Shown here piece after piece: positions 32,372-57,111 of a DNA stretch of 64,000 nt (position 1 is the stretch's first letter; each line of letters starts with the position of its first letter). The notes beneath the pieces are model-generated. The model saw nothing but the letters and a program-made list of their open reading frames with translations. It made no database searches and was not told where the DNA came from. The DNA is from Acidobacteriota bacterium. Lineage in GTDB: Bacteria > Acidobacteriota > Vicinamibacteria > Fen-336. Location: the NCBI GenBank assembly GCA_016199625.1, contig JACQGI010000015.1, positions 1 through 64,000 of the forward strand. The letters run 5' to 3'. Made by a program: the position numbers and the translations under genes.

Positions 32372-32379
32372 GAACCACC

Positions 32380-33462: not shown

Positions 33463-33515
33463 GCCTTCCTCCGCGCGAGTGCTCCGACGCCACCCTAACG
33501 TCGCCGCGTGCATCT

Positions 33516-34064: not shown

Positions 34065-34693
34065 TGCCACCCCCGCTCGATGCGAACACGACCGCCCTGC
34101 GCCACGGTGATGAACATCCGCAGCCCCGTGCGCGTCTGCAGGACCGAGATCTGCCCGTCCCCGTTGGCGTCGCCGGACACGTAGTTGGTGCCCGCATCCA
34201 GCTCCGGACAGGGCTCGTTGGCGGTGTCAGGGACGCACATCGCACCCAGGCGGGTGAAGCGGAATCCCCGGTCGGTCGCGCCCGCCGTGACGTCGAAAAC
34301 GACGCCCACGGGCAGCCGGCGCAGCGGTCCCACCTGGTCGGGATCGTTGAGGAGGTTCGTCGTCGTCTGTCGGACCCCGGCCCCGGCCGCCTCGACGATG
34401 TCCTCCATGACCCACCGGTAGGCGACCTCGTTCGTGGGATTGCCGTCGGTGTTGGGGGCGAGGACGATGAACAGGACGCCCTTGTTCACGTTCTTCATGA
34501 TGGCCCGCGTGCGCGCGGCCTGGATCTCGGACGCCACCCCCTGCGCTGCGCCCTGGATGGTGTAGACCTTGATGTAGTTGGCGACCGGAGGACCGGCGAC
34601 CGCCGCCAGGGTCGCGATGATGGCCACGACCACCAGCAGCTCCACCATGCTGAAGCCGGCCTGCCACCGCTGCGAGCGTTCAGCGAGTTTCAT
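34061..34693 (-). CDS. FimT/GspH-like pseudopilin
   Basis: QAGFSMVELLVVVAIIATLAAVAGPPVANYI. Confidence 0.87.
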   Translation of the reverse strand: MKLAERSQRWQAGFSMVELLVVVAIIATLAAVAGPPVANYIKVYTIQGAAQGVASEIQAARTRAIMKNVNKGVLFIVLAPNTDGNPTNEVAYRWVMEDIVEAAGAGVRQTTTNLLNDPDQVGPLRRLPVGVVFDVTAGATDRGFRFTRLGAMCVPDTANEPCPELDAGTNYVSGDANGDGQISVLQTRTGLRMFITVAQGGRVRIERGWQ

Positions 34694-34766
34694 AGCAGCC
34701 TCCCCTTAAGCAAGGCGCGTACCCCTGCGGCGTTGCCTCCGCAATTGACTGATGAGAGGAATGTTA

Positions 34767-36185
34767 TCACGAACCGCCCCGTTGGGATGGTGACTCCGGC
34801 GGAGCAGCGTCGTTACGGCACGTAACGTCTCGGGCCGGTCCCCGGCATGGGAGCCTCACCTCGACCCGGAGGCCGTGGGGGGAGACCGGCGCGAACGTCA
34901 GATCGCCCCCGTGAAGGCGGACGATCTTCAGGGTGAGTGGAAGGCCGAGTCCCAGGCCTCCGGGCTTGGTCGTGAAGAACGGCTGGGGTGAAGCGGGGCT
35001 GTCGGGCGGGAGCCCCGGGCCGTCGTCGGTCACCGCGACGAGCAGCGTCTCGTCGGTCGTGCGCGCCGACGCCGTCACGTGACCGCCCGCGCCGGCGGCC
35101 TCGCGGGCGTTCCGCAGCAGGTTCTCGAAGGCTCGCTCGAGCAGGTCCTCGTCCCCCACGAGGTCGCCCCAGGCGCCGGAAGGGTCGAGGGCCACCTCGG
35201 CTCCGGGCTTCCGGCATTCCCGGGCCGCAATCCGCGCGAACAGCCGGCCCGGATCGAAGGTCGAGAGGGACAGGCGCTCCTGCTTGACGAAGTCCAGGAA
35301 GCGCCGGACCACGGTCTCCAGCGCCTGGCACTCCTCGCGGATGCGGCCCGCCGCCTCCGCGGCCTCGGCCGGCGACGGGGCGGCCTCGACGAGCTTCGCG
35401 TAACCCAGGATGGTGCCGAGGCCGTTGCGCACCTCGTGGGCGATCCCCGCCGTCAGCTCCCCCGCCCGCGCCATCGTCTCCAGGTCCTCGAGGGCGTCCT
35501 CCATGCGCCGGCGCTCGGCCTGGTGCTCGCGGGTCCGCGCGGCGTCGTGGGCCCGGAGGCGCTCCATCGCCTCCTCGTAGGCCTCGAGCGCCCGCGGCGG
35601 CGCCGCCTCCTCGCGGCTCGGGAAGAGGACCGCCGCTGCGGCGAGCAGGAGCACGAGCAGCGCGACGCCATGGCCGACGAGGATCTGGCGCCGCTCGCGC
35701 AGGTCGTCGAGGAGATCGGGGGCGCGGGTCGCCAGCCGCAGGACCAGCGTCGCGTCGCCCGACCGGAGCGCCAGGTAGGTGAAGAGGCGGGCCTCGCCCT
35801 GGACGATCGGTCCCACGGTCACGACGGCGCCGTTCCGGACGAGCTGCAGGTCGCCGGCGCCGGGCCAGTGGCCGATCGGTGCGGGCCGAGGCTCGGAGAA
35901 GACGGCGCGGCCCGAGAGGTCGAACAGCTCGAGCTCGGAGGCGAGCGCTCCGACGAGGACCTCGTCGGCGGCGCGGCGCCAGGCCACTGGACCGCCGGGC
36001 TCGAGGGTCGCCGCCAGGTGCCCCCGAGCCAGGAGGATCGATTCCCGGAGGTTGCGCACGACGCGCTCCCTGAGGCGGCTCTGCGAGCGCAGGGTGTGGA
36101 CGAGCCCCTGGATCTCGAGGAGCCCGAGGACGACCACGGCGAAGCCGAGGGCCAGGCGGGTCCAGAACGTGCGCCGATCAGCCAC
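34767..36185 (-). CDS. Membrane sensor histidine kinase (PilS/NtrB-like layout)
   Basis: H-box AGIAHEVRNGLGTILGYA, N-box LLRNAREAAG, G-box DDGPGLP and GLGLGLPL. Confidence 0.92.
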   Translation of the reverse strand: MADRRTFWTRLALGFAVVVLGLLEIQGLVHTLRSQSRLRERVVRNLRESILLARGHLAATLEPGGPVAWRRAADEVLVGALASELELFDLSGRAVFSEPRPAPIGHWPGAGDLQLVRNGAVVTVGPIVQGEARLFTYLALRSGDATLVLRLATRAPDLLDDLRERRQILVGHGVALLVLLLAAAAVLFPSREEAAPPRALEAYEEAMERLRAHDAARTREHQAERRRMEDALEDLETMARAGELTAGIAHEVRNGLGTILGYAKLVEAAPSPAEAAEAAGRIREECQALETVVRRFLDFVKQERLSLSTFDPGRLFARIAARECRKPGAEVALDPSGAWGDLVGDEDLLERAFENLLRNAREAAGAGGHVTASARTTDETLLVAVTDDGPGLPPDSPASPQPFFTTKPGGLGLGLPLTLKIVRLHGGDLTFAPVSPHGLRVEVRLPCRGPARDVTCRNDAAPPESPSQRGGS

Positions 36186-36993
36186 GGAGGACGCCCTTGT
36201 ACCACGCGACGACGGGATCGCCCCACAGGAGCACGAAGAGGCCCGCGACGCCCAGGAACGTGCCGAGGGGAAGGGCGTGGCGGAGCCCGCGTCCCTTGGC
36301 GGCCATGAGCCCCAGCCCCACGAGGGTGCCGGAGAGGGTCGCGACGAAGACGGTCAGCAGCAGCCGCTCCCAGCCCAGGAACGCACCGAGCATGGCGGCC
36401 ATCTTCCAGTCCCCCTGCCCCAGGCCTTCGATCCCCCGGGTCGTCAGGTACGCTTCGGCCACGAGGGCGAAGGCGGCGTATCCACCCGCCGCGGCGGCCA
36501 GCGCGCCGAGGGGCCTCGGCCCGTGCGGCGGCCCCGAGAGGAAGCTGCCGACGAGCCCGAGGGCGATGCCCGGCAGGGTCACGCGGTCGGGCAGGATGTG
36601 GTGCTCGAGGTCGACGAGGGCGAGCACGAGGAGCGCGGTGGCGAACGCCATGGCCAGGACGGCCCGCGGCGTGACGCCCCAGGCCGCGGCGATCGCCAGG
36701 TAGATGAGGCCGTTGAGCGCCTCGACCGCCGGGTAACGCGCCGAGATGGGGGCGCGGCAGGAGCGGCAGCGCCCCCGGAGCAGCGCGTAGCTCAGCAGGG
36801 GAACGTTGTCGAGCGCCCGGATCGGCGCGCCGCAGGCCGGGCAGCGCGAGCGCGGCGTGACCACCGACTGCCGCAGGGGAAGCCGGTGGATGCAGACGTT
36901 CGCGAAGCTGCCGACCACGAGGCCGAGGGCCAGCGCCGCCCACGGCCAAAGGACGCCCAGGGTGAGCGCCAGCGCGGAAGCCGACTCGGTCAT
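36178..36993 (-). CDS. pilD: Prepilin peptidase (A24 family, leader peptidase/N-methyltransferase)
   Basis: GSFANVCIHRLP, two CxxC pairs (CPAC/CRSC), DLEHHILPD and GQGDWKM catalytic Asp motifs. Confidence 0.95.
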   Translation of the reverse strand: MTESASALALTLGVLWPWAALALGLVVGSFANVCIHRLPLRQSVVTPRSRCPACGAPIRALDNVPLLSYALLRGRCRSCRAPISARYPAVEALNGLIYLAIAAAWGVTPRAVLAMAFATALLVLALVDLEHHILPDRVTLPGIALGLVGSFLSGPPHGPRPLGALAAAAGGYAAFALVAEAYLTTRGIEGLGQGDWKMAAMLGAFLGWERLLLTVFVATLSGTLVGLGLMAAKGRGLRHALPLGTFLGVAGLFVLLWGDPVVAWYKGVLRG

Positions 36994-37060: not shown

Positions 37061-41592
<4,532 letters not shown>

Positions 41593-41596
<4 letters not shown>

Positions 41597-42351
41597 GCGC
41601 GTTGGGCTCGCGCGAGGGATCGTCGCCGGACCGCTGGCGGAGGGAGCTCGCGCACGACCGGAGGATCGCGTCGCGGGCGGAGGCGATCTGGGACTGGGAC
41701 ACGCCCGCGGGACGGCGGAGGGCCGACCGGCGCGCGGCGTTCTTCGTCGAGCACGGTGCCTTGGGTCCGGGCCGCCGGGCCCTCGAGCTGGGTTGCGGCA
41801 CGGGCGTCTTCCTCGAGCGCGTGGCCCGGTCCGGGGCCGACCTGCACGGGCTCGATCTCTCCCCCGACCTCCTGGCTCGGGCCCGCGAGCGCGTGGCCGG
41901 CACGGCCAACGTGCGACTCGTGCAGGGGAACGCCGAGGCCATGCCCTTCCCCGACGGGTCCTTCGACGCCGTCTACGGCAGCTCGGTCCTGCACCACCTG
42001 GGCCTCGAGGCCGCGCTCCGCGAGGTCCACCGCGTCCTCCGACCGGGAGGACGCACGGTCTTCACCGAGCCGAACCTCCTCAACCCGCAGATCGCCGTGA
42101 CGTTCCTCGTCGCGCCGAGGAGGACCCTCGGGCTCTCGCCCGACGAGATGGCCTTCACCAGGTTCCGCGCCCGCGCCCTCCTCGACCGCGTCGGCTTCAC
42201 AGAGCCTTCCGTGCGCCCCTTCGACTTCCTCCATCCGCTGGTCCCGCCCTCGTGGATCGACGGCGTGGCCCGGCTCGGCTCGGCCCTCGAAGCCGTCCCG
42301 GGGCTGCGGGAGATCGCCGGCTCCCTGCTCATCCGTGGAACGAGACCGTAG
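41593..42351 (+). CDS. Class I SAM-dependent methyltransferase
   Basis: RALELGCGTGVFLERVARSGADLHGLDLSPDLL, SSVLHHLGLEAALREVHRVLRPGG; GTGA overlap. Confidence 0.9.
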
Positions 42352-42366
42352 GCCAGGGAGGCGGCC

Positions 42367-43113
42367 GTGAGCCGCGAGCGTCTGGAGGAGCACCGCCGCA
42401 TCTGGAAGCGGAAGCCGGTCCTCGCGGACGTCTACGCCGTGTGGTTCGATGCCCTGCTCGGCGTCCTCCCTTCGCGCGGGCGGATCCTCGAGGTGGGGGC
42501 CGGGCCCGGCTTCCTCTCGGCCTACGCGCGCCGGCGGCGGCCGGAAGTGCTGTGGGTCGCCACCGACCTCGTGGAGGCGCCGTGGAACGACCTGGTGGCG
42601 GACGGCCTCGGCCTGCCGGTGCGCGAGGGGAGCGTGCACGCCATCGCAGCCCTCGACCTCGTCCACCACCTCGCCCGACCGGAGCGGTTCTTCCGCGAGG
42701 CCCGGCGGGTCCTCGTCCCGGGCGGAGTGCTGGCCGTGATCGAGCCGTGGCTCACGCCGTTCTCGTACCCGATCTACAGGTGGCTGCACCAAGAAGGCTG
42801 CCGCCCGGGCATCGATCCCTGGAACCCCTTCGGAGCAGCCGGCCGGAAGGAACCCTTCGAGGGCGACAGCGGCGTCTTCACGCGACTGCTCCGCCAGCCC
42901 CCCCCGGTCCGCTGGCGGGACCTCGGCCTGGGGCCGCCCCGCCTCACGCTCCTCAACGGCTTCGCGTACCTGCTGAGCCTCGGGTTCCGCGAGGCGTCGC
43001 TGCTGCCCCGCTGGCTCGCTGCGCCGCTGCTGCGCCTCGACGGACGTGCCTCCTCCCTGGCCCGTTACGTCGGCTTGCGCGCCCTGGTGGTGTGGGAGCG
43101 CCTCCCCAGCTAG
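42367..43113 (+). CDS. Class I SAM-dependent methyltransferase
   Basis: RILEVGAGPGFLSAYARRR, ALDLVHHLARPERFFREARRVLVPGG. Confidence 0.88.
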   Translation: MSRERLEEHRRIWKRKPVLADVYAVWFDALLGVLPSRGRILEVGAGPGFLSAYARRRRPEVLWVATDLVEAPWNDLVADGLGLPVREGSVHAIAALDLVHHLARPERFFREARRVLVPGGVLAVIEPWLTPFSYPIYRWLHQEGCRPGIDPWNPFGAAGRKEPFEGDSGVFTRLLRQPPPVRWRDLGLGPPRLTLLNGFAYLLSLGFREASLLPRWLAAPLLRLDGRASSLARYVGLRALVVWERLPS

Positions 43114-45221
43114 GGCGATCCCGCCGCTTCCGGTGCCGCCCCGACGACCGGGACGGCGCCCGCGCGCCGGAGCCGGACGAGGACGGCCAGCAGGTAGGCG
43201 GCGAGGGCGACGAGGAGCAGCGCCTTGAGGCCGATCGCCATCGAGGCGAACTCGAGGAGGCCCCCCGTCACGGCGCCCAGGAGGTTCCACCCGAAGGCCG
43301 CGGCCGCCTGCTCGCGGTCGCGGAACAGCGCCGCGAACGAGAGGGCTGCGAAGAAGATCGGCGAGCCGACGAAGAGGATCGAGAGGGCCAGCTTCCCTGC
43401 AACGTCCGCTCCCACCAGGACGCGGGCCGGCACGGCGTAGGCCGTCAGCAGGGACACCACGAGGCCCCCCATCCCCCAGTGGAACGGCAGAGGCCGCGCC
43501 CGCGTGAGCAAGGTGCCGAGGAGGATGACGCCGAGGATCGAGCCGAAGACCACGGCGTTCGTCAGCCACGTGCCGCCCCAGGCCAGGTTCATCTCCGTCA
43601 CCGACCGGGTCTCGAGGAGGAGGAATGCCAGGCCGAACAGGAACATCTCCCAGTCTGCCTGCCGTAGAGAACCCAGGCCGCGGCGCATCTCCCCCGAGGC
43701 CAGCGCGACGCCGAGCACCGTGAGGGCGCCGAAGGCTGCCATCAGCTTCAGGTAGAAGCCGTGGATGCCGCGCTGCCTGAGATAGAGAAACGGCCAGTCG
43801 TCGCCGGGCAGCTCGACGCGGGCCGTGATCCTCTCGAGGACACGGGGAGCGTCCGCGCGTCGTTCCGCACCGCCGTGGGGGGCGAAGGCCGGGCCGGCCA
43901 TGAGGATCCTGTTGAAGAACCTGTAGTGGCGCGCCACGCCCAGAGGCGCCTCCCCGAAGACCTCCGTCAGCATTCCGACGAGGCGCAGGTCGATGTATTC
44001 GACCCCCACCATGTAGTACAGAACCAACCCGCCGTCTGGGGTCAGCCGATCTCGAGCGGCGCGCACGCAGTCGGTCGTATAAACGAAGTTGTCGAGACGC
44101 ACATTGGACAACGCCGACAGCCGTGTCATGGAATCGAGAGTCCCGAAGACGATGAGGTCGTACTTCTCCGACGTCCGGTCGAGGTAGGAACGCGCGTCGG
44201 TGTTGATGACGCGGACGCGGGGCGACGCGTACGGCCGGTTCGGGTGCCGCAGCCCCATATCGAGGATCACCGGGTCGATCTCGACGGCATCCACCCGCTC
44301 GGCGCCCTCGTCCAGGAGCACCGCGACGTCGTTGCCCGTTCCCGCGCCCACGACGAGAGCGTTGCGCACACGTCGCCCTAGGAGGCCATAGGGAAGGTGG
44401 TAGCCGTCCCGCGTCGTCTGTTGCCCGCGTGTCAGCCCCTCGTCGCTCCTCCTGACCGGAGACGCCCACTGGTGCAGCGACCCGTTGGCCAGGACCGCGA
44501 ACCCAGCCAGCTCCGGCTCCTGGTCGATCCTCAGGGCGTAATAGGGGCTGTAACGGTCGGCGCGCTCCGAGCGGCCGACGATCATCACGACCAGCGCCGC
44601 GACGAGAAGGTGAAACGCCTTGCGCCACGCCGGCCCGTTGACGAAGAACAGGCCGAACGCAAGGAAGACCGAGAACCACGTCACCGGGAATGAGCCGCTG
44701 AAGGACACGACGGCGAAGGACATCACACCAAGAAGAGACCCGAGGATGTCCCACGAGTAGCCGAGCAACGCGCTGGCCCGCGCCCGGAAGGCGTTCAGCC
44801 TGTCGGCGATCACCTGGCCGAGCGGCACGAAACTGAGCGTGCTGAGAACGAAAGTGACGACGAGGGGCAGCGCAACGTCCTGCACCACGGGTGAGCCCTG
44901 CGGGAGGTCGTAGTACAGCAGGAACAGGTGCTCGGAAGACGATGCCTGGGTGAAGGCGATCCGGCTCATGCCGGCTCCGCCCAGCACGACGGCGGCGAGC
45001 GAAAGCGGCCAGGCCAGAACCAACGATCGCCGGCGCGCCAGCAGGCATCCGAGTCCAAGGCCCAGGAACGCGCTCAGCAGGACCAGGTTTGGGAAGTAGG
45101 CGAGCACGCGAACCTGCCCCGGCAGCCAGCGGATGAGGGCGAGCTCCTGGAACAACGCAACGAAGGACGCTGCAGTCAGCTCCAGGGCCAGGCGCGCGGG
45201 GCGCTTGTCTCCCCAACCCAT
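43110..45221 (-). CDS. Multi-TM protein with embedded spermidine-synthase-like (Rossmann) domain
   Basis: NALVVGAGTGNDVAVLLDEGAERVDAVEIDPVILDMG between N- and C-terminal TM blocks. Confidence 0.82.
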   Translation of the reverse strand: MGWGDKRPARLALELTAASFVALFQELALIRWLPGQVRVLAYFPNLVLLSAFLGLGLGCLLARRRSLVLAWPLSLAAVVLGGAGMSRIAFTQASSSEHLFLLYYDLPQGSPVVQDVALPLVVTFVLSTLSFVPLGQVIADRLNAFRARASALLGYSWDILGSLLGVMSFAVVSFSGSFPVTWFSVFLAFGLFFVNGPAWRKAFHLLVAALVVMIVGRSERADRYSPYYALRIDQEPELAGFAVLANGSLHQWASPVRRSDEGLTRGQQTTRDGYHLPYGLLGRRVRNALVVGAGTGNDVAVLLDEGAERVDAVEIDPVILDMGLRHPNRPYASPRVRVINTDARSYLDRTSEKYDLIVFGTLDSMTRLSALSNVRLDNFVYTTDCVRAARDRLTPDGGLVLYYMVGVEYIDLRLVGMLTEVFGEAPLGVARHYRFFNRILMAGPAFAPHGGAERRADAPRVLERITARVELPGDDWPFLYLRQRGIHGFYLKLMAAFGALTVLGVALASGEMRRGLGSLRQADWEMFLFGLAFLLLETRSVTEMNLAWGGTWLTNAVVFGSILGVILLGTLLTRARPLPFHWGMGGLVVSLLTAYAVPARVLVGADVAGKLALSILFVGSPIFFAALSFAALFRDREQAAAAFGWNLLGAVTGGLLEFASMAIGLKALLLVALAAYLLAVLVRLRRAGAVPVVGAAPEAAGSP

Positions 45222-45229
45222 GAGGGCGG

Positions 45230-45258
45230 ATCCTGCACAACCCGCTCCGCGAAGTCAA
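45230..45258 (-). promoter_or_regulatory. Sigma-70-like promoter TTGACT-N17-CAGGAT, 8 nt before ATG 45221
   Basis: -35 5/6 match, optimal spacing, weak -10. Confidence 0.4.
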
Positions 45259-45336
45259 ACGCCGGCGGCGACGTCGACCGGCGGTAAAGACGTGCACGGC
45301 GATCGAGGCCGGCTCGCGTGCCTCGAGCCGAGAGCG

Positions 45337-45364
45337 TTGACACGACCCGCCGTTCGCCTATGAT
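45337..45364 (+). promoter_or_regulatory. Sigma-70-like promoter TTGACA-N16-TATGAT upstream of the 45.4-57.1 kb operon
   Basis: TTGACA 45337-45342, TATGAT 45359-45364. Confidence 0.65.
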
Positions 45365-45371
45365 GCGGCCC

Positions 45372-45390
45372 GGGGCTCCGCCGGAGCCCC
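45372..45390 (+). other. Perfect hairpin GGGGCTCC-GCC-GGAGCCCC at the predicted transcript 5' end
   Basis: 8-bp stem, 3-nt loop, begins about 8 nt after the -10 hexamer. Confidence 0.6.
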
Positions 45391-45403
45391 GATTGGAGCG
45401 TGC

Positions 45404-47866
45404 ATGCGACTCGGTCCTGTGGCCCGCGCCTGCGGCCTCGCGTTCCTGACGGCGGCTTGCACCCTCTGCATCCAGATCCTCGTTCACCGGGCGATCTCGG
45501 CGAAGCTGCTCAACAACTTCGCCTTCCTGGTGATCTCCCTCACGATGCTGGGCTTCGCCCTGTCCGGAGTGCTGCTGACCCGCCTCTTGCCGCGGTTCCT
45601 CTCGCGCCTTCCCGACGCGGTCACGACCTGCGCGGCCCTGCTCGTGCTCACCCTGCTGGGAGCCACGATCCTCTTCTACGACGCCGACATCTTCCAGGCC
45701 GCCCGCAACCGCCCCCACTTCGTCGTCCTCTTCCTCAAGACCATCCCCTACGCGCTCGTCTTCGCCGTTCCCTTCACGTTCTGCGGCCTGATCCTGGGCG
45801 CCCTGCTGTCCTCCCCCGAGCTCCCGACGCGCCGCGTCTACTTCTACGACCTCCTGGGCTCGGCGGTAGGCGCCTTCGCTGTGATCCAAGTGATCAGCGC
45901 CCTCGGCGTCGAGAACGGTCTCCTTCTCTCTTGCGCGGTGATGCTCACCGGCGCGGTGCTCCTCGCGCCACCGCACGGGCCGGTGGCCCGCAGCCTGGCG
46001 GCGGCAGCCGCGGTGGCGATCGCCTCGTGCGTCGCCTTCGAGGATCGCGCCTTCGTGATGCGGTATCCGAAGGGAACTGTCCTGGACGGGATCACGGCGA
46101 ACGCGCGTGGCGAGTACGGGATCGAGACCGTCGTCTGGGACCCCGTGGCCCGGATCGAGGTGTCTCGGATCCGCCCCGTGGACCCCGAAAGGATGTTCTA
46201 TCGGAGCCTCGTCGGGACCAACCAGGCGTTCCACGCGCGGTTCAAGCGGATGCTGACGCAGAACAACAACGCCTGGACGTACGCCGTGGAGTACGACGGG
46301 ACCCGGGAGTCCCTCACGGGGATCGAGGAGACGATCTACGCCGCCGCCTACCAGGCCGCCTCGGTCCGGGCTCCGAGGGTCGGCGTCGTCGGCGTGGGCG
46401 GGGGCTTCGACATCCTGAACGCCCTGTACTTCGGCGCCTCCCGGGTCACGGCCGTGGAGGTGAACGCGGCCACGGTGTCCCTCCTGAGAAACCGGTACCG
46501 CGACTACTTCAGGCACTGGGTCGACGACCCGCGCGTGAACCTGGTCCTCGGCGAGGGGCGGCACTACCTGTGGAGCACCGACGAGACGTACGACGTCCTC
46601 CAGCTCTCCGGGGTGGACTCCTTCGCGGGGACGGCCGCGGCGGCCCACGTGTTCTCGGAGAACTACCTCTACACCGCCGAGGCCTTCGACCTCTACCTCT
46701 CCCGCCTCACCGACCAGGGCATCCTGAACATGATGCGCCTCGAGTACTGGCCTCCGCGGGAGATGCTGAGGGCCCTCGTGACGGCGGTCGAGGCCCTGCG
46801 CCGCGCCGGCGTCGCGCACCCAGCCGACCACATCCTGATGCTCACCGACACCCCGTCCCCTGTCTTCACGGCCCTCCTCGTCAAGAAGACGCCCTTCACG
46901 GCCGAGGAGCGAGGGCGGATCGTCGAGTGGGCGGACCGGAGCGCTCAGTTCGAGGTCTCGGCGGCGCCCGGCATGAGCCCCGAGGCGACCACGTACCAGC
47001 TGTTCCTGAGCCTCGACGACCCGAAGCGAGAGCGTGCCTTCGTGGCCGGCTATCCCTGGAACGTGGCACCGGCGGGAGACGACCGCCCCTTCTTCTTCAA
47101 TTACTCCTTCTGGTGGCATCTCTTCCCCGCGGACTCCACGGTCTGGGCCAACACGCCGGTCATGGAGTACTCCATCCTGATCCTGGGTGGGGTCGTGGCC
47201 CTGGCGACCCTCGCCTGCATCTACGTGCCCCTCCGGCTCCTGGCCGGGCGCGCCGCGACGACCCCCGCCAGGAAGAGGTACGGCGTCTACTTCGCCGGGG
47301 CGGGGGTCGGCTACATGGCCGTCGAGATCGCCCTGCTGCAGAAGTTCGGCCTGTTCCTGGGGCACCCCAACTACTCGCTCTCGGTCGTCCTCGCGGCGCT
47401 GCTCCTGACGAGCGGCTTGGGCTCCCTTTTCTCGGCCCGGATCCTCTCGACGCTGAGGGAGATCCGCTTCGTCAGCTACGTCCTGGCGGGCCTGATCCTC
47501 GCCGAGTACGCCCTGATCTTCCCGCGCCTGTCGGGGCTCATCGGCCTTCCCTTCGCCGCCCGCGTCCTGATCGTGTTCGCCCTCGTCGCGCCCCTCGGCG
47601 TGTGCCTGGGCACGTTCGTCCCCACCGCACTCGACCGCCTGAAGCCCGAGGCCCCTTCGTACGTGCCCTGGGCGTGGGGCCTGAACGGGATCTTCTCGGT
47701 GTTGTCTCCCGTCCTGAGCATCGCCTTCTCCATGACGTCGGGGATCAACGCTCTGCTGCTCGGGTCCATCCCGGTCTACCTCGTCACGGGCTTCGCTCTT
47801 CCCTCCCTCGCCGAGGGAGCCGAGGCCGTGGCGCTCTCGAGGCGCGCCGCAACCAAGCCGGCATGA
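45404..47866 (+). CDS. Multi-TM protein with spermidine-synthase-like domain
   Basis: RVGVVGVGGGFDILNALYFGASRVTAVEVNAATVSLL; TM blocks at both ends. Confidence 0.82.
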   Translation: MRLGPVARACGLAFLTAACTLCIQILVHRAISAKLLNNFAFLVISLTMLGFALSGVLLTRLLPRFLSRLPDAVTTCAALLVLTLLGATILFYDADIFQAARNRPHFVVLFLKTIPYALVFAVPFTFCGLILGALLSSPELPTRRVYFYDLLGSAVGAFAVIQVISALGVENGLLLSCAVMLTGAVLLAPPHGPVARSLAAAAAVAIASCVAFEDRAFVMRYPKGTVLDGITANARGEYGIETVVWDPVARIEVSRIRPVDPERMFYRSLVGTNQAFHARFKRMLTQNNNAWTYAVEYDGTRESLTGIEETIYAAAYQAASVRAPRVGVVGVGGGFDILNALYFGASRVTAVEVNAATVSLLRNRYRDYFRHWVDDPRVNLVLGEGRHYLWSTDETYDVLQLSGVDSFAGTAAAAHVFSENYLYTAEAFDLYLSRLTDQGILNMMRLEYWPPREMLRALVTAVEALRRAGVAHPADHILMLTDTPSPVFTALLVKKTPFTAEERGRIVEWADRSAQFEVSAAPGMSPEATTYQLFLSLDDPKRERAFVAGYPWNVAPAGDDRPFFFNYSFWWHLFPADSTVWANTPVMEYSILILGGVVALATLACIYVPLRLLAGRAATTPARKRYGVYFAGAGVGYMAVEIALLQKFGLFLGHPNYSLSVVLAALLLTSGLGSLFSARILSTLREIRFVSYVLAGLILAEYALIFPRLSGLIGLPFAARVLIVFALVAPLGVCLGTFVPTALDRLKPEAPSYVPWAWGLNGIFSVLSPVLSIAFSMTSGINALLLGSIPVYLVTGFALPSLAEGAEAVALSRRAATKPA

Positions 47867-47870
47867 GGGC

Positions 47871-50336
47871 GTGAGCGGGCCGGGGGCCGTGCTCCGCGCC
47901 CTCCTGCGCCCGATCGCGTGGCCCCGCCCCGGCCGGGAGCACGTCCTCGCCCTGTTCGGCCTGGCCGCGCTCGTCGCCTTCCTGTTCCGGGGAGCGATCT
48001 TCGGAGGCGGGGTCCTCTTCCGCCGGGACATCAACATGGTGTGGCTGCCGCAGGTGGAGACCTTCGTCCACTGCGTGGCCGCGGGATCGTGGCCCTTGTG
48101 GGATCCCTTCTCGGGCTTCGGCCGGCCGCTCCTCGCCGATCCCCGGGCGGAGATCCTCTACCCGCCGACGTGGCTGAATCTCCTGATGTCTCCCGGCACC
48201 TACTACACGCTCTTCACGGCGATCCACCTCGTGGGCTCGGGCTTGGGCCTGTACGGCCTCGCTCGGCGTTTTGGGGTCTCGCGCCTCGGCTCCCTCTTGG
48301 CCGGCGCTGTCTGGATCACCTCGGGTCCCCTGCTGTCCCTGGTCTCCATGTGGCACCACCTCGCGGGCGCCGCCTGGATCCCGTGGCTTTTCCTCGCCGG
48401 GGACCTGGCCCTCGATACTGGCCGCTGGCGGCACGTGCTCCTCTGGGGCGCGTGTCTCGCAGCACAGATCCTCGCGGGCTCCCCCGACTTCACTGCCCTG
48501 GCCCTTCCTTGTGTGGCGCTCTACGTCGTCGTGCGCCGGCCGTCCTGGCGCGCGTCGGCGTCTCCGCCCCGCCGTGGGCCCTTGGCGATCGCCGCCCTGG
48601 CCGGGGCCTTCGGCCTCGCCCTGTCGGCCGCCCAGTGGCTCCCGACCCTCGAGTGGGCCCTGGCGACGGCCCGGCCGGTCCTGCGATACGAGGACCGCAC
48701 GACGTGGTCGCTGCACCCCCTGGCCCTCCTCGAGCTGCTGACGCCCCAGACCTGGGCGAGCCTCCCGCTGCAGCCGTCGCTCGCGACCACCCTCCTCGGG
48801 TTCAAGGAGCCCTGGCTCCATTCGATCTTCTTCGGAGTTCCGGCTCTCGCGCTGGTGCTGGCGGGCGCGATCTCACGGCAGCCCCGAAGCCTTTTCCTGG
48901 CGGCCGTGGCCGTGGGATCCCTCCTCGTGGCCCTCGGTCGCTACGGCTGGGCCTATGACGCGGCGGTGTTCCTCATGCCACCCCTCAAGATGCTGCGTTA
49001 CCCGGTGAAGGCGATGGTGCTGTCCGCCTTTGCCTGGTCCCTGCTGGCGGGCTTTGGCACGGACCTCTGGCGCAGAACGCAGGAGCGGCCCCGGCGCGTT
49101 TGGCTGCTGTCCGTGGTCGCGCCTCTGGGTCTCGTCCTGGGTCTCGCCCTCGCCGCCACCGCGGCCGCCGCTCACCGAGCCGAGGCCTGGGGGGCCAGCT
49201 TCCTGTCGGCCCCCACGGCCCTGCGAGGCGGGCTCCTCGCCCCCGTGGCGGCCGGCTTCGCCTCCACGGCGGCGGTCACGGGAGTCGTTCTCGTCCTCGC
49301 GCTCGCGGGGCTCCGGCGGCGGCCTCCGGGGGGCTGGCCGGCGGCCGCCCTGGCCGCCTTGGCTGTCGGCCAGCTCGTCGTGGCGCACCGCGACCTCCAC
49401 GTGGTCGGCCACCGCGACCTGTTCCGCCTGCGGCCGCCCGTGCTGGCCTACCTCGAGGGCGAGGGCTTTCCCCGGCTCTACGTGTACGACTACTCCATCC
49501 TGACCGAGCCGCAGCCCCGATCCAACCCGCAGGCTCTCGAGGCCTACCGTGTGGCGAGAGTGCCTCTGGGCTGGACCTTCCCGGAGGCCCTCGTGCTCGG
49601 TGTCCACTTCTACCTGAACCCGCCGACCGCGGCCCGCTGGCGCCTCCCGGGCAGCTTCGACCACGACATCCTCGGATTCGAGCCCGTGCCGCTGGCGCGG
49701 CTCGTCGAATTCCTGCGAAAGGTCGAGGACACGCCGGGCCACGAGCGTCTCCTCCGCATCGGCGGCGTGCGCTACGTCCTGGCCCTCGTGCCTGGCGCCT
49801 GGTGGCGCGATCTCGTGCCGACGGCCACCGTGGAGGGCATACTCGAGCGTCCGATCCAGGTGCTCCGCGTCCGTGACCCGTTGCCGCGAACCTACGTCGT
49901 CGACGGTGTCCGTTTGGCCGACGGGGAGGAGGCGCAGGCCATGCTCGTCGATCCGGAGTTCGATCCGACGCGGGAGGTCGTCCTGCCCGCAGGCGCTCCC
50001 CGGACCGCCGGACCGTCGCCGCCCGGCACGAGTCGGATCCTCGCGCTAAGGCCGGACCACGTGACCCTCGAGGCCGATCTCGTCCGCCCGGGCCTGGCCG
50101 TCCTTCTCGACGCCTACGATCCCGGCTGGCGGGCCACGGTGGACGGCTCGCCCGCCGAGGTGCTGCGCGCCAACGTGGCCTTCCGGGCCGTGGAGGTCCC
50201 CCCGGGCCGTCACCGCATCGAGTACGTATACCGGCCGCGGGGCGTGAGAGCCGGCGGCGCCCTCTCCGTGGCTGCGCTCTTCGCAGGATTGCTCTCTGCG
50301 GCGATGGGCGCCAGGAGACCTCCGGAGGCCCCGTGA
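47871..50336 (+). CDS. YfhO-family membrane protein (GT-C-like), paralog 1
   Basis: FGGGVLFRRDINMVWLPQVETFVHCVAAGSWPLWDPFSGFGRPLLADPRAEILYPPTWLNLLM. Confidence 0.87.
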   Translation: MSGPGAVLRALLRPIAWPRPGREHVLALFGLAALVAFLFRGAIFGGGVLFRRDINMVWLPQVETFVHCVAAGSWPLWDPFSGFGRPLLADPRAEILYPPTWLNLLMSPGTYYTLFTAIHLVGSGLGLYGLARRFGVSRLGSLLAGAVWITSGPLLSLVSMWHHLAGAAWIPWLFLAGDLALDTGRWRHVLLWGACLAAQILAGSPDFTALALPCVALYVVVRRPSWRASASPPRRGPLAIAALAGAFGLALSAAQWLPTLEWALATARPVLRYEDRTTWSLHPLALLELLTPQTWASLPLQPSLATTLLGFKEPWLHSIFFGVPALALVLAGAISRQPRSLFLAAVAVGSLLVALGRYGWAYDAAVFLMPPLKMLRYPVKAMVLSAFAWSLLAGFGTDLWRRTQERPRRVWLLSVVAPLGLVLGLALAATAAAAHRAEAWGASFLSAPTALRGGLLAPVAAGFASTAAVTGVVLVLALAGLRRRPPGGWPAAALAALAVGQLVVAHRDLHVVGHRDLFRLRPPVLAYLEGEGFPRLYVYDYSILTEPQPRSNPQALEAYRVARVPLGWTFPEALVLGVHFYLNPPTAARWRLPGSFDHDILGFEPVPLARLVEFLRKVEDTPGHERLLRIGGVRYVLALVPGAWWRDLVPTATVEGILERPIQVLRVRDPLPRTYVVDGVRLADGEEAQAMLVDPEFDPTREVVLPAGAPRTAGPSPPGTSRILALRPDHVTLEADLVRPGLAVLLDAYDPGWRATVDGSPAEVLRANVAFRAVEVPPGRHRIEYVYRPRGVRAGGALSVAALFAGLLSAAMGARRPPEAP

Positions 50337-52822
50337 GCCTGTTGAGGCGGGCGGTTCGGATCCCCCGCGCCCCGCGGGAATACGTGGCGGCCGTCCTGGG
50401 GCTCCTCGTCCTCGTCCTCTTCCTGTTCCGCGACGTGGTCTTCGGCGGCCGCGTCCTGTTCTTGCGCGACGTTCATCTGCAGTGGTACGGGCAGGTGGAG
50501 AGCCTGGTCCACGCCGTGACGTCGGGTTCGTGGCCCCTCTGGGACCCCTACGTGTCCTTCGGCCAGCCCCTCCTCGCGAACGCCAACGCGCAGGTCCTCT
50601 ACCCGCCGACTTGGCTCAACCTTCTGATGCGTCCGTGGACCTACTACACGGTGTTCGTGCTGGCGCATCTCCTCATCGCCGGAACGGGCCTCTACGCCCT
50701 GGGACGGCGCTTCGGACTTTCCCCGCCGGGCGCCTTCGCCGCCGCAGCCGCGTGGACGGCCTCGGGGCCGGTTCTCTCCTTGGGAAACCTCTGGAACCAC
50801 CTCGGCGCCGCAGCCTGGCTTCCCTGGGCGCTCCTGGCAGCCGACGTTGCCGTGAAGTCGGGGCGGCCGCGCGATGTCGTCCTGTCCGGCTCCGCCCTCG
50901 CCCTCCAGGTTCTGGCGGGATCTCCCGACGTACTCGCGATGACGGCTGCGTTGGCCGCAGCCAATGCCCTCCGTCACGTGGATCGACGACACATCGCCGG
51001 AGCGGTCAACCGCCGGGTCGCGGCGGTGCTGCTGGGGACTTTCGTCTTCGCCGCGGCTCTTTCCGCTGGCCAGGCCCTCCCCTCGGCCGAGCTGGCGTCC
51101 CGTGCGGGGCGCTTCGGCCTGACGGCGCAGGAGCGCGGCTATTGGTCGATGCACCCACTCTCCATGCTCCAGACGGCCGTCCGGGTCTCCTGGACCGAGA
51201 TCCCCCTGCGGGAGGGCTACCGTGAAGTCGTCTTCGAGTCGCGGGAGCCTCTTCTCCTCTCTGTCTACCTGGGCCTCCCCGTCCTTGGACTCGGACTAGC
51301 GGCCTTTGCGGGACCGGCGCTTCCGGGCCGAGCGCTGTTCGCCTGGGGTGCCGTGACCGCAGTCCTCCTCGCCCTGGGACGCCACGCGCCGTTCTACGGC
51401 CTCGCGGCGGCGGTCCTGCCTCCGCTGCAGGTCCTCCGCTTCCCGTCCAAGGCGATGATCGCCGCGGCGCTCTGCCTCGGGTTGCTCGCGGGCATGGGTG
51501 TGGACGTCTGGCGGCAGAACGATGCCGTCCGAGGGCGGCGATGGATCCTCCGGGTGACTCTACCTCTCGCGACGGGGATGCTCTTCCTCGGTCTTGCGGC
51601 TCAACTGGCCTCGAGCCGGGCCGCAGAGTGGGGACCGGAGGTTCTCCACGCGCCGGCGGCGGGCTCCACCTACGCCACGGTGGCGGCTCCGATCACGCGC
51701 GCCCTGGCCGAGGCGTCGGTCCTCAGCGGTACCCTGGCCTTGGCGAGCCTCCTGCGCGGCCGAGGGGCACGGGCCGGGCGGGCGGCGGGGGCCGCGGCGA
51801 CAGTCCTCGCGGTGGCTGACCTGCTCGGCGCCCACGCCGATCTGAACGCCACGGCTCCCAGACAGCTCTACACCTTGCGCCCGGACGTCCTCGACCATGT
51901 GGCGCCGCAATCCGACCATCGACGACTCTACGTCGTGGACTACCAGGACGACCCCAGGTTCAGCCAAAGGTGGTTGAAACGCGCGGTCCCGTACGTGGTC
52001 CAGACGCCCGACGGGCAGGCACCCCTCTTGTGGCGAGCGGCGTTGGCGGCCAGGATCTACCCGGCGCCGCCCGTGGCGGGCGCCTGGCGGGTCCACGGGA
52101 GCTATGCCAGGGACTTGCTTCGGATTCAGCCTCCCGAGTTGAGGGTTCTCCATGGGCTGCTGGTGCGTGGCCACGCGACCCCGCTCTTCCTTCGACTCCT
52201 GCGCCTGGGCGCCGTCAGCCAGGTTGCAGCGCTTCACGACCCCCCCGTCGGTCTCGAGCCCGAGGTGACCCTGCCCGGCCCCTATTTCGAGCCCATACGC
52301 CTCTTCCGAGTTCCCGATCCGCTGCCGCGCGCCTACGCGGTGGGCGGCGTCCGCGTGGCGAATACGTCCGGCGAGGCCGTGGACGTGCTCTTGGATCCGA
52401 CCTTCGACCCCGCGCGAGAGGTGATCCTGCCGTCGGGAAGGTCGCAGCCACCACCGGCGAGCTTCAGGGGTGCGGTGCGCCTGCTCGCGCTCAAGCCCGA
52501 TCGCGTCACCCTCGAGGCCGACCTGGAGAGCGACGGGCTCGTCGTCCTCGCCGACGCCTTCGACCCGGGCTGGCGTGCCTCGGTCGACGGCCGCGATGTT
52601 CCCCTGCTGCGTGCGAATCTGGCGTTCCGCGCCGTCGCCGTGTCCGCCGGCCGGCACGTCGTGGAGATGGCCTATCGCCCCCGTTCGGTAGCGGCGGGGC
52701 TGCTGCTCTCGGCTGCCGCGATCGTGGGCGGCGCCACGCTTCTCCTGCGGCCGACTCGTGCCAGGCCACGTCCATCGGGGACGGATTCGGCTCCATTTGA
52801 CCGGGTTGCGGGGCGAGCGTAG
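50333..52822 (+). CDS. YfhO-family membrane protein, paralog 2
   Basis: FGGRVLFLRDVHLQWYGQVESLVHAVTSGSWPLWDPYVSFGQPLLANANAQVLYPPTWLNLLM; GTGA overlap with paralog 1. Confidence 0.87.
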   Translation: MSLLRRAVRIPRAPREYVAAVLGLLVLVLFLFRDVVFGGRVLFLRDVHLQWYGQVESLVHAVTSGSWPLWDPYVSFGQPLLANANAQVLYPPTWLNLLMRPWTYYTVFVLAHLLIAGTGLYALGRRFGLSPPGAFAAAAAWTASGPVLSLGNLWNHLGAAAWLPWALLAADVAVKSGRPRDVVLSGSALALQVLAGSPDVLAMTAALAAANALRHVDRRHIAGAVNRRVAAVLLGTFVFAAALSAGQALPSAELASRAGRFGLTAQERGYWSMHPLSMLQTAVRVSWTEIPLREGYREVVFESREPLLLSVYLGLPVLGLGLAAFAGPALPGRALFAWGAVTAVLLALGRHAPFYGLAAAVLPPLQVLRFPSKAMIAAALCLGLLAGMGVDVWRQNDAVRGRRWILRVTLPLATGMLFLGLAAQLASSRAAEWGPEVLHAPAAGSTYATVAAPITRALAEASVLSGTLALASLLRGRGARAGRAAGAAATVLAVADLLGAHADLNATAPRQLYTLRPDVLDHVAPQSDHRRLYVVDYQDDPRFSQRWLKRAVPYVVQTPDGQAPLLWRAALAARIYPAPPVAGAWRVHGSYARDLLRIQPPELRVLHGLLVRGHATPLFLRLLRLGAVSQVAALHDPPVGLEPEVTLPGPYFEPIRLFRVPDPLPRAYAVGGVRVANTSGEAVDVLLDPTFDPAREVILPSGRSQPPPASFRGAVRLLALKPDRVTLEADLESDGLVVLADAFDPGWRASVDGRDVPLLRANLAFRAVAVSAGRHVVEMAYRPRSVAAGLLLSAAAIVGGATLLLRPTRARPRPSGTDSAPFDRVAGRA

Positions 52823-52825
52823 CCT
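52797..52825 (+). promoter_or_regulatory. Sigma-70-like promoter TTGACC-N17-TAGCCT, 7 nt before ATG 52833
   Basis: TTGACC 52797-52802, TAGCCT 52820-52825; no Shine-Dalgarno. Confidence 0.5.
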
Positions 52826-52832
52826 GTGCGCC

Positions 52833-54659
52833 ATGACCGCGGGCCCTCCCGGCACAGAGCCAACTGCTGCCGGGATGGCGTCTCCCTGGTCTTTGCCCGG
52901 GGGGCTCGGCATCGTTCACGTCGTGGCGCTGGGCCTCGTCCTGCGGCTCACCCACCTCGCCTTCGTCGCGCCGACGCCGATGTTCGACTACCACCGGACC
53001 TTCGTCGACTCCGACATGTACATCTTCGACCAGTGGGCGCGGCGCATCGTCGGGGGAGATCCCCTCGGCCGGCAGCCGTTCCACTACGTCGCGCAGTGGG
53101 AACGCCATCATGCCCCTGAGGAGAAGTGGGCGACATGGTTCGGGCGGACGCCGGTCTTCTACAAAGCACCGGCCTATGCGTATCTAGTGGCTCTCCTCTA
53201 TTGGGTCTTCGGGGACCCCATGCTCCCCCTGGCGGCGCTGCAGATCCTGGCTTCGGTCCTGGCCATCGTGCTGCTCCTGCGCGTCACGGAACAGCTCGTG
53301 GGCCGGCCAGCCGGCCTTGCGGCGGCCCTCTTCCTGGCCGTCTACGCGCCGGCGATCCATTTCGACGTGACCATGCTCCGAGGCACCTGGATCGCCGTCA
53401 CGTCCCTGGCCGTCACCTGGCGCTCGCTGGCGGTCCGCTCCCAACCCAGCGGGTCAAACGCCCTCTTCCTGGGACTGTCGGTGGGAGCGGCCCTGCTCTT
53501 CAACGAGGCCTTCGCACCGGCCGTCTTCCTGGTGGCGGGACTCTTCTTCGTCTCGGCTCGCCAGCGGCTCTTCGTGCTGCTCGCCGGCTACGCGGCAGGT
53601 CTGGCTCTGGCCCTCTTGCCGGTCGTCGTGCGAAACCATCTCGTGGGTGCGCCGTTGTTCCAGTGGGCCGTCCTCGGGGGAGTGGCGTTCGCCATCTGCA
53701 ACACCGCCGGGGCGAGCCCATACTTCTTCGAGCCGCGCCCGGACAAGTACGTCCCCGTGATCGAGGCCAGCGGAGGGAGCCTTCTGGCGACGGCCCTGGG
53801 TTGCCTGCGGTCGTTCGATGGCCCGCTCGACGTGATGTTGTTCTACTTGAAGCGGACCGCCGGCCTCATCGTGCCGTACGAGAATCCGGACAACGTCAAC
53901 TTCTATTACGCCGCGCTGCACAGCCCGATCCTGGGGGCGCTCCCCGGGTGGGCCGTGCTCTTCCCGGCGGTCGTGGTCGGCCTGGGTCTCGCGGTCCGTC
54001 GCCTCCGCGACCTCGCCCCGCTGCTCCCGGCGGGGCTCCCGCTCCTGGGCGCGCTCCTGCTCACCCTGCCCATGTCGCGGTACCGCACCGTCCTCGCCGT
54101 GTTCCTGATGCCGGCGGCAGGCCTCGCCCTCGCGCGCGCTGCGGTGTGGGTCCGCGAACGGAAGCCGGTCCCGGCGTTGGCCGTGGCCTTCGTCGCGATG
54201 GCAATCGCGGTGGGAACGCAGCTCCTGCAGACGAAACTGGTCTTCGGCGGACAGCCCGAAGGAGGGTTCCTCTACCGTCCTGTCGAGTTCTTGTTGAGCG
54301 CTCAGGTCTACGAGAGTCGCGGGCGGCTCGCCGACGCCGCACGCGAGGCTCTGGACGTCGCACGCCTCAACCCCGATCGCCGGCTGAAGGCGTCCGCCCT
54401 TGCGGTGCTCGGGCGCCTCCAGGGCCGGCAGGGCAACGCCGTCGCCGCGAAGGAGGCGCTGGCAGGGGCACGCCTCCTCGGTGCCGGCGACCCCTACCTG
54501 TTGGTGGAAGTCGCCGGGATCCAGGCGGACGTGCTCGCCGACAAGGCCGAGGCCCGTGCCACCTACGGCCTGGCCGTCCAGTCGGCCGACAGCGAGGCCC
54601 ATCGCGCCTCGATCCGCGAGCGGCTGCGGCGCCTCGAAGCCGCACCAGGGGCGCAGTAG
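52833..54659 (+). CDS. GT39-like (GT-C) multi-TM protein with C-terminal TPR-like region
   Basis: HRTFVDSDMYIFDQWARRIVGGDPLGRQPFHY loop, ~10 TMs, C-terminal helical repeats. Confidence 0.78.
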   Translation: MTAGPPGTEPTAAGMASPWSLPGGLGIVHVVALGLVLRLTHLAFVAPTPMFDYHRTFVDSDMYIFDQWARRIVGGDPLGRQPFHYVAQWERHHAPEEKWATWFGRTPVFYKAPAYAYLVALLYWVFGDPMLPLAALQILASVLAIVLLLRVTEQLVGRPAGLAAALFLAVYAPAIHFDVTMLRGTWIAVTSLAVTWRSLAVRSQPSGSNALFLGLSVGAALLFNEAFAPAVFLVAGLFFVSARQRLFVLLAGYAAGLALALLPVVVRNHLVGAPLFQWAVLGGVAFAICNTAGASPYFFEPRPDKYVPVIEASGGSLLATALGCLRSFDGPLDVMLFYLKRTAGLIVPYENPDNVNFYYAALHSPILGALPGWAVLFPAVVVGLGLAVRRLRDLAPLLPAGLPLLGALLLTLPMSRYRTVLAVFLMPAAGLALARAAVWVRERKPVPALAVAFVAMAIAVGTQLLQTKLVFGGQPEGGFLYRPVEFLLSAQVYESRGRLADAAREALDVARLNPDRRLKASALAVLGRLQGRQGNAVAAKEALAGARLLGAGDPYLLVEVAGIQADVLADKAEARATYGLAVQSADSEAHRASIRERLRRLEAAPGAQ

Positions 54660-54666
54660 ACCGCCG

Positions 54667-57111
54667 ATGATCGACGGTTCCGGGACTCCCTGGTGGCGCC
54701 GCCGCATTCCGACTCCGTCAGTCCCTCCGGCCGACGTGGCGGCATCCTTGGCGCTCCTGGCCCTGGTCCTCTTCCTCTTTCGAGACGCGGTCTTCGGCGG
54801 GCAGGTCTTCTACTACCGCGACATCCACTTGCAGTGGCAGCCCCAGGTGGAGGCTTTCGTTCGGGCGGTGACCAGCGGTTCCTGGCCATTGTGGAACCCT
54901 GATCGCTCCTTCGGCCAGCCCTTGCTCGCGAACCCGAATGCTCAGGTTCTCTACCCTCCCACGTGGCTCAACCTCCTCATGAGGCCGTGGACGTACTACA
55001 CCCTGTACGTAGCCGGCCACGCGTTCGTCTGCGGCTTGGGGGTCTACCTCCTTGCCTTGCGCCTCGGGACGTCACGTCCGGGCGCCCTGCTCGCGGCGTC
55101 GGTTGCCGTCTCGTCGGGGCCCTTCCTGTCCCTCGCGAGCCTCTGGAACCACCTGGCGGGCGCGGCGTGGGTCCCGTGGATCGTCCTGGCGGCCGATCTC
55201 GCGCTGGCGGCGGGAGGCGCCGCCCGGACGGTCGTGTGGGGGCTCGCCCTGGCGGCGCCCGTCCTTGCCGGGTCGGTGGAGTCCGGGCTGATCGCGGCCG
55301 TGCTGACGGTCGCCTGCTGCTGGCCGCGCCTCGACCGCACGCCTCTCCTGGGATCGCACAATCGCCGCCTCGCGTGGACCGCGGTCGGCGCGGTGGCGCT
55401 GGCGATGGGATTCTCCGCAGCGCAGTGGCTCCCGTCGCTGGAGCTGGCGCGGCGCTCGGCGCGCGCAGGTCTTCCGGCCGCCGTGACCGGGTACTGGTCC
55501 GTCCACCCCTTCGACCTCGTCGAGACCGCGATGCCCCTGTTGCTCGTCGACCTGCCCCTGCGCACGGAGGTGCGCGCCGCCCTGTTCGAGTCGCGCGAGC
55601 CGTTCATGCTCTCGCTGTACCTCGGCCTCACGTCGGTCGGCCTGGGTGTCGCGGCCATCGGCTCGGGTCCGAGCGGGAGGGTCGCTCGCGGCCTCGCCCT
55701 GACCGCCCTCGTTGGAGTCGCCTTGGCCCTTGGCCGGCACGCTCCCCTCCTCGAAGGCCTGCAGGCCATCTTCCCCCCGCTCCGGAGCCTCCGCTATCCG
55801 GCGAAGGCCATGATCTTGACGGGATTCGCATGGGCGCTGCTCGTAGGGCTGGGCTTCGACGAGATCGCCCGTGGGGTCGGAAGGGCGCGGCGGCTCCTCG
55901 TGCCGATCGTCGAGGCGACGGCCGCCGCCTCTCTCGCGGTCTCAGGCGTGGCGCTGTGGGTGCTGCGCCATCGCGGCCAAGAGCTGGGCGAGGCCATCCT
56001 GGCTCGGGAGTTCACCCGACGCCCGTTCTCCGCCGTGTTCGAGCCGGCAGCCGACCGCGTTCTGGTACTGACGACGCTCCTCGTGGCGCTCCTCGGAATC
56101 CACATGATCCGCCGGCTTCTGGGAAGTGCCTATGCCCCCGCGATCGGGCTGGTGGTCGCGTTCGATCTCTCTGGAACCCACAGCCGCCTGACTCCGATGG
56201 CGGAAAGGGACCTCTTCACCTTCGTGCCGCCGGCACTCGCGAGCGTCAAGGGCATGGAGAGATCGCGGCTGTACGTCAGCGATTACTTCGAGCGTGGCAA
56301 GGGGGAGAGATACCTGGGGCATCCACGGTTCGTGCCCGCTCGCCTCAAGGAGGACTGGCCATTCCCCTGGGCCGAGGCGGTCGCCGTGCGGGCATACCTC
56401 CATCCGGCCGTGCTCGGGAACTGGGGGCTGGAAGCCGCCTATGCGACCGACTCGCTGGGTCTGTTTCCGCGAGACCTCGAACTCCTCGTCCGGCTCCTCC
56501 GGGCAGTGGAGGGCACGCCGGCCCATCTGCGGCTCCTGCAGGTCGCCGGAGTGGAACGGGTCGTGACCCTGCACTCCGAAGGCTTCGAAAGCCTTCCGCT
56601 CGTGGCCACGCACCCCACGTTCTTCCTCGAGCCCATGCACGTCTTCCGGGTCCCGGAACCCTTCCCCCGCACCTACGCGGTGAGCGGCGTACGCGTGGCC
56701 CGTGGAGCAGCGGCGGCGGCTGTGCTTCGGGATCCGCTCTTCGATCCCAGGCGCGAGGTGATCCTGCCCGAGGGCCCGCCCACCAGCGGCTCGCCGGCCT
56801 TCTCCGCTTCCAGCCGCATCCTGGCCTGGAGGCCAGACTTTGTGCGACTCGAAGCCGAGGCCTCGGGACCGGGCCACCTCGTCCTCCTCGAGGGCTACGA
56901 CCCGGGCTGGCACGCCACGGTGGATGGCCGGCCGGTGCCGGTGCTGCAGGCCAACCTCGGGTTCCGCGCGGTGGCGCTCTCCGCGGGACGGCACGTCGTC
57001 GAATACGTCTACAGGCCGGCGGCGGTCATCATGGGGCTTGCTCTCTCCGCGGCCGCCATGGCGGTGGCGCTGGCGGCAATCGTTCTCGCGGGGGCAGGGA
57101 GCGCGTCCTGA
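54667..57111 (+). CDS. YfhO-family membrane protein, paralog 3
   Basis: FGGQVFYYRDIHLQWQPQVEAFVRAVTSGSWPLWNPDRSFGQPLLANPNAQVLYPPTWLNLLM. Confidence 0.87.
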   Translation: MIDGSGTPWWRRRIPTPSVPPADVAASLALLALVLFLFRDAVFGGQVFYYRDIHLQWQPQVEAFVRAVTSGSWPLWNPDRSFGQPLLANPNAQVLYPPTWLNLLMRPWTYYTLYVAGHAFVCGLGVYLLALRLGTSRPGALLAASVAVSSGPFLSLASLWNHLAGAAWVPWIVLAADLALAAGGAARTVVWGLALAAPVLAGSVESGLIAAVLTVACCWPRLDRTPLLGSHNRRLAWTAVGAVALAMGFSAAQWLPSLELARRSARAGLPAAVTGYWSVHPFDLVETAMPLLLVDLPLRTEVRAALFESREPFMLSLYLGLTSVGLGVAAIGSGPSGRVARGLALTALVGVALALGRHAPLLEGLQAIFPPLRSLRYPAKAMILTGFAWALLVGLGFDEIARGVGRARRLLVPIVEATAAASLAVSGVALWVLRHRGQELGEAILAREFTRRPFSAVFEPAADRVLVLTTLLVALLGIHMIRRLLGSAYAPAIGLVVAFDLSGTHSRLTPMAERDLFTFVPPALASVKGMERSRLYVSDYFERGKGERYLGHPRFVPARLKEDWPFPWAEAVAVRAYLHPAVLGNWGLEAAYATDSLGLFPRDLELLVRLLRAVEGTPAHLRLLQVAGVERVVTLHSEGFESLPLVATHPTFFLEPMHVFRVPEPFPRTYAVSGVRVARGAAAAAVLRDPLFDPRREVILPEGPPTSGSPAFSASSRILAWRPDFVRLEAEASGPGHLVLLEGYDPGWHATVDGRPVPVLQANLGFRAVALSAGRHVVEYVYRPAAVIMGLALSAAAMAVALAAIVLAGAGSAS

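Follow-up and report, generated by a model that had tools for sequence, protein, structure and literature searches.

Two membrane proteins with spermidine synthase-like domains point to an uncharacterized family of probable SAM-dependent membrane enzymes

Two divergently encoded membrane proteins, termed A and B, in the window (the whole 64,000-nucleotide stretch of DNA that was analyzed) point to an uncharacterized family of S-adenosylmethionine (SAM)-dependent membrane enzymes. Computation established the spermidine synthase fold, the loss of both hallmark residues, the retention of the adenosyl-binding acids, the strong conservation of a set of substitute polar residues and the absence of SpeD from most carrier genomes. 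Our favored explanation, in which we have about even confidence, is that A and B are membrane-embedded enzymes that bind intact SAM, likely for methyl transfer to a membrane-associated or exported substrate, and that they are probably not aminopropyltransferases. They would have separated long ago within a single, widespread family of bacterial membrane enzymes. In this family, a spermidine synthase-type (class I, seven-stranded) SAM domain would sit between two MFS-like seven-helix blocks and transfer the methyl group of SAM, or possibly a different group derived from it, to a substrate such as a lipid-linked sugar produced by the glycosylation genes nearby or an exported protein. No description of this bacterial family of membrane spermidine synthase-like proteins was found in the open-access literature that was searched. 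Because they score as members of the spermidine synthase family, hundreds of A/B-type proteins, spread over many phyla, risk being mis-assigned to polyamine metabolism.

Architecture and relationship of A and B

The initial annotation had described a divergent pair of proteins in which TM blocks flank a SpeE-like domain. The coordinates and strands of the pair were correct (Table 1), and the architecture was borne out for A by an AlphaFold2 (AF2) model and, in the case of B, by the hydropathy profile. The model, built with 80 aligned sequences, had a pLDDT of 92.9 and a pTM of 0.93 and placed TM helices 1 to 7 at residues 8 to 218, the soluble domain at residues 222 to 480 and a further seven helices at residues 488 to 688. 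Hydropathy of B gave the same arrangement of seven helices, domain and seven helices after setting aside residues 326 to 342, a predicted hydrophobic stretch within the soluble domain that corresponds to the motif-I strand.

The structure prediction that had been proposed as a check returned solved spermidine synthases as fold matches to the AF2 soluble domain of A, with an E value of 1.4e-8 and 19% identity to 1uir in a Foldseek search, and the AF2 and Foldseek results included the N-terminal beta-hairpin subdomain of the spermidine synthase fold. Sequence matches to the solved spermidine synthases 1uir and 3anx were detected for both proteins (E values of 7.6e-7 for A and 4.4e-5 for B). With the Pfam family PF01564 (Spermine_synth), A scored 25.5 bits, above the cut-off of 22.9, and B scored 18.2 bits, just under it. 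As profile comparison showed homology between A and B along their whole length (probability 100, E value of 6e-46, 655 columns), the two are best regarded as old paralogues and not as separate inventions.

Table 1. Positions of the divergent gene pair, its parts and adjoining genes in the window
Feature	Position	Strand	Description
Gene A	43110..45221	-	703 aa; 7TM, SpeE-like domain (residues 222-480), 7TM; motifs GAGTGND, AVEIDP, DAR, FGTLDS, DDWPFLY
C-terminal 7TM block of A	43146..43772	-	AF2
SpeE-like soluble domain of A	43782..44558	-	About residues 222-480; AF2, fold search
N-terminal 7TM block of A	44559..45221	-	Fold matches weak, MFS-like only
Intergenic region	45222..45403	.	182 bp between the divergent start codons of A and B
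Gene B	45404..47866	+	820 aa; architecture as in A; motifs GVGGGFD, AVEVN, GEGR, LSGVDS, DDRPFFF
YfhO-family membrane protein	47871..50336	+	PF09586, E 3.5e-9; starts 4 bp after B
Second YfhO-family protein	50333..52822	+	PF09586, E 1.6e-10; overlaps the first by 4 bp

Loss and retention of catalytic and cofactor residues

The motifs VFGTLDS of A and QLSGVDS of B, to which the initial annotation had drawn attention, were present and aligned with the D-x-x-D-P motif of SpeE. At the position of the catalytic Asp, 80 A homologues carried Gly (53), Ala (26) or Ser (1) and 23 B homologues carried Ser, Thr or Gly, with Asp in 0/80 and 0/23, respectively. Both this first Asp and the Pro were gone in all of the aligned A and B members, while the second Asp (D363) was invariant in 80/80 A proteins. 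The replacement of the catalytic Asp with retention of the second one, as claimed for this pair, hence holds family-wide. The SAM-site glycines were also said to remain, and do so, but the loss of the acidic residue of GGG[DE]G had gone unnoticed. This dcSAM-binding acid was absent from all 80 A proteins (T in 51, S in 20, A in 5, G in 3 and L in 1), although the A counts at residues 292 to 297 are partly selected by one of the two search patterns used to find these loci, [VA]L[VI][LVI]GAG[TS]G[NT], which prescribes some of the glycine-loop residues (neither the second pattern nor position 360 is affected). The 23 B proteins had G or A at this position; the residue is T in A and G in B of the window, and the loop without the acid reads GAG[TS]G in A and GxGGG in B.

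Controls from the same phylum, consisting of 12 soluble SpeE and 11 membrane PRK03612 proteins, had the catalytic Asp in 23/23 cases and D or E at the dcSAM position in 23/23 cases; PRK03612, a membrane spermidine synthase and hence the matched control, retains every catalytic residue. Soluble SpeE proteins (1uir and 3anx) share with A and B the fold, the beta-hairpin N-subdomain, the adenosyl-binding acids and the second Asp, whereas in A and B the catalytic Asp, the dcSAM acid and the Pro have been lost and the domain is embedded between TM blocks.

The adenosyl-binding acids of A were conserved, with E314 being E in 78/80 and D in 2/80 proteins and D342 being present in 80/80, and E or D was found at both positions in B. 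Both proteins thus carry the signature of class I SAM methyltransferases, namely an acid-free GxGxG loop, an acid at the end of beta2 and an adenine acid. A further acid, D298, located three residues past the lost dcSAM acid (GxGxGxD), was unchanged throughout A and all 23 B proteins, and R344, R375, N246, Y227 and D474 were invariant or nearly so in the soluble domain of the 80 A proteins. Together with D363, these family-specific residues argue for an active site over decay. Decay of A and B from membrane spermidine synthases into functionless remnants would fit the absence of the catalytic Asp from both, but has a negligible chance of being correct given the intact reading frames, more than 500 related loci and invariant residues across many phyla, and this invariance refutes a status as degenerate pseudogenes.

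In a tree of 85 domains, A and B formed one clade (support of 100/99) separate from soluble SpeE, PRK03612 and a class of MFS-SpeE-TPR proteins, with the deep order unsure as the tree was midpoint-rooted and carried a long-branch warning. SpeD makes dcSAM. It was detected in 20/21 PRK03612 genomes (16/17 further genomes plus G005, G035, G083 and G108), counts that are not independent because many of these genomes are close kin; in 9 genomes, it was encoded no more than about 5 kb from PRK03612. In contrast, SpeD was present in just 7/36 genomes with A or B; the MAG of the window is 63% complete and is uninformative on this point by itself. As SpeD was not detected in the other 29 of these 36 carriers, dcSAM is probably missing from them. 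The seven carriers with SpeD count against our favored explanation, as does the fact that D298 could replace the lost dcSAM-binding acid. An aminopropyltransferase with rearranged residues, in which the invariant D298 would serve as the dcSAM-binding acid and the invariant D363 as the base, is nevertheless improbable: besides the 29 carriers probably without dcSAM, SpeD was never near A or B in the seven that have it, and the first Asp and Pro of DxxDP are lost in all members. The view of the initial annotation that these proteins are unlikely to make spermidine was strengthened. Because both hallmark acids are lost family-wide, the separate clade is deep and, unlike for PRK03612, SpeD is mostly absent, A and B are probably SAM-dependent transferases of a methyltransferase-like kind.

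The role of the pair had been considered undescribed. No account of these bacterial proteins turned up in the literature searched, but the fold without its catalytic residues has a characterized fungal precedent. NHMT (Aspergillus AN4663) consists of a 7TM block (residues 1 to 215), reported to be unique to fungi, followed by a spermidine synthase-like domain, and is a proven SAM methyltransferase for the N-terminal histidine of secreted LPMOs; it is without the acid of GxG(D/E)G and has kept the SAM-binding Glu (PMC10349129). Shared with A are seven TM helices before the domain (residues 8 to 218 in A), the missing dcSAM acid and the retained Glu. NHMT differs from A and B in being fungal and in lacking a C-terminal TM block, and the likeness is drawn from the published description and not from sequence. 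As relative or analogue, NHMT would be a comparable precedent for a methyltransferase reading of A and B.

Other proteins of the same phylum, with MFS-SpeE-TPR or PAP2-TM-SpeE arrangements (PF01564 plus MFS_1 or PF14378), also combine a TM scaffold with a SpeE-like domain, have lost the dcSAM acid and have a DD motif after the domain, which is homologous to that of A (probability 99.4). They differ in having both 6TM halves before the domain, SEPSNPW instead of LDS, no GxGxGxD and their own branch in the tree. The MFS-SpeE-TPR proteins (L205-L219) form a large third class, several per genome, with GLGSG and SEPSNPW and without the dcSAM acid; their 6TM halves are clearly homologous to each other (probability 100, E value of 3e-42) and resemble the 7TM block of PRK03612 (probability 97). 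PAP2 lipid-phosphatase domains fused to TM and SpeE-like domains were seen at L107:3137-7195, where the fusion gene comes after a family A gene, and at L212:1064-4714, and hint at lipid substrates. These fused cousins lend some weight to a slim chance that A and B instead catalyze SAM-dependent transfer of a 3-amino-3-carboxypropyl (or other non-methyl) group to a membrane lipid or glycan. The aminopropyl chemistry of the fold attacks the same carbon, and T, S or G in place of the dcSAM acid could admit the SAM carboxylate, but the genes beside A and B included none of the betaine-lipid or nicotianamine type.

Transmembrane blocks and predicted topology

When the N-terminal TM block of A was folded alone and subjected to a PDB fold search, nearly all of the top 50 matches were MFS transporters, none of them significant (E values of 0.14 to 3). 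The two halves of A aligned weakly with each other (probability 46, E value of 2e-4). The MFS resemblance raises the possibility that A and B are MFS-type transporters in which the SpeE-like domain would act as a pseudoenzyme, sensing a ligand or forming a lid without catalysis, and would gate the passage of a polyamine, a lipid or a sugar. We consider this unlikely. Near-invariant charged or polar residues in the TM helices of the 80 A proteins (E26/Q, R31, E537, N646 and E657) and the scoring of a sister family as Pfam MFS_1 speak for transport, while the conserved polar pocket, including R344, R375, D363 and N246, goes beyond the needs of adenosine binding, and a transporter-like gene context was not found.

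Like A and B, the membrane polyamine aminopropyltransferases of PRK03612 (NF002956) begin with a 7TM block that leads into a SpeE domain. They differ in keeping GGGDG and D[FL]PDP, in being SpeD-associated and in lacking a C-terminal TM block, and homology between the TM blocks of A and PRK03612 was not detected by profile comparison (probability 1.4).

Lys and Arg residues gathered on alternating loops of A in 80/80 proteins (mean of 14.1 versus 5.0); because of this concentration, the charge pattern predicts an inside N-terminus and a SAM domain on the outer side. The C-terminal half of A was consistent with the same pattern, and B agreed once the motif-I strand was set aside. Three PRK03612 homologues with seven resolved helices (among L175-L194) exhibited the same positive-inside pattern, placing their domain on the same side as that of A, even though these SpeD-associated enzymes should need cytosolic dcSAM. 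The predicted location counts against a SAM-dependent enzyme, as SAM is, to our knowledge, not available outside the membrane. Either helices 7 and 8 do not cross the membrane or enzymes of this class act on the outer face with a route for SAM supply, an option that the MFS-like scaffold makes conceivable. In a transmembrane group transfer of this kind, which we regard as quite unlikely, an MFS-like bundle would admit cytosolic SAM or a reactive group to the SAM domain on the outer face, and surface glycans or exported proteins would be methylated after export; it would be the methylation counterpart of membrane acyltransferases that move acyl groups across the membrane. If the outside location holds, how a SAM enzyme works beyond the cytoplasm becomes a testable question.

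Distribution and gene neighborhood

Family A was confirmed at at least 515 loci, in Acidobacteriota, Verrucomicrobiota, Gemmatimonadota, Chloroflexota, Actinomycetota, Planctomycetota, Nitrospinota and other phyla, and was present in 28/297 genomes of the phylum of the window. No conserved neighbor indicating a substrate was observed among 121 flanking genes of A (best, PMT_2 with 4), which counts against the enzyme explanation.

B is the first gene of an apparent operon, being followed by three YfhO-family proteins and one PMT_2 protein, and the first YfhO gene is likely to be co-transcribed with B. The PMT_2 protein sits between the second and third YfhO paralogues (positions 47871 to 57111). 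A survey of YfhO neighborhoods, as had been proposed, detected YfhO beside the close B subfamily in 4/9 loci (the window, L247, L248 and L250), with some contigs ending at B, but near family A in just 3/80 loci, ruling out an association of A in general with YfhO. A and B were found together in 0/80 A loci (flanks of up to 10 kb) and in no other examined locus, and were rejected as a conserved gene pair. The cell-surface role that had been read from the placement beside YfhO thus found weak support, as the placement is suggestive in the case of B alone.

Several further observations were made on these neighborhoods. A paralogue of B with 63% identity in the same genome (contig C30, L249:8791-13476) ends a 1562-residue open frame, the upstream part of which has no Pfam match and reflects either fusion or read-through. 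The B homologue with YfhO at L248 also adjoins T2SSE and T2SSF genes. In the window, three class I methyltransferase domains and a family 2 glycosyltransferase lie directly before A (positions 39485 to 43113), in what is likely a glycan cluster, and this region is adjoined by minor-pilin-like genes (PilX_N and two N_methyl motifs), a histidine kinase and a prepilin peptidase (positions 31637 to 36993).
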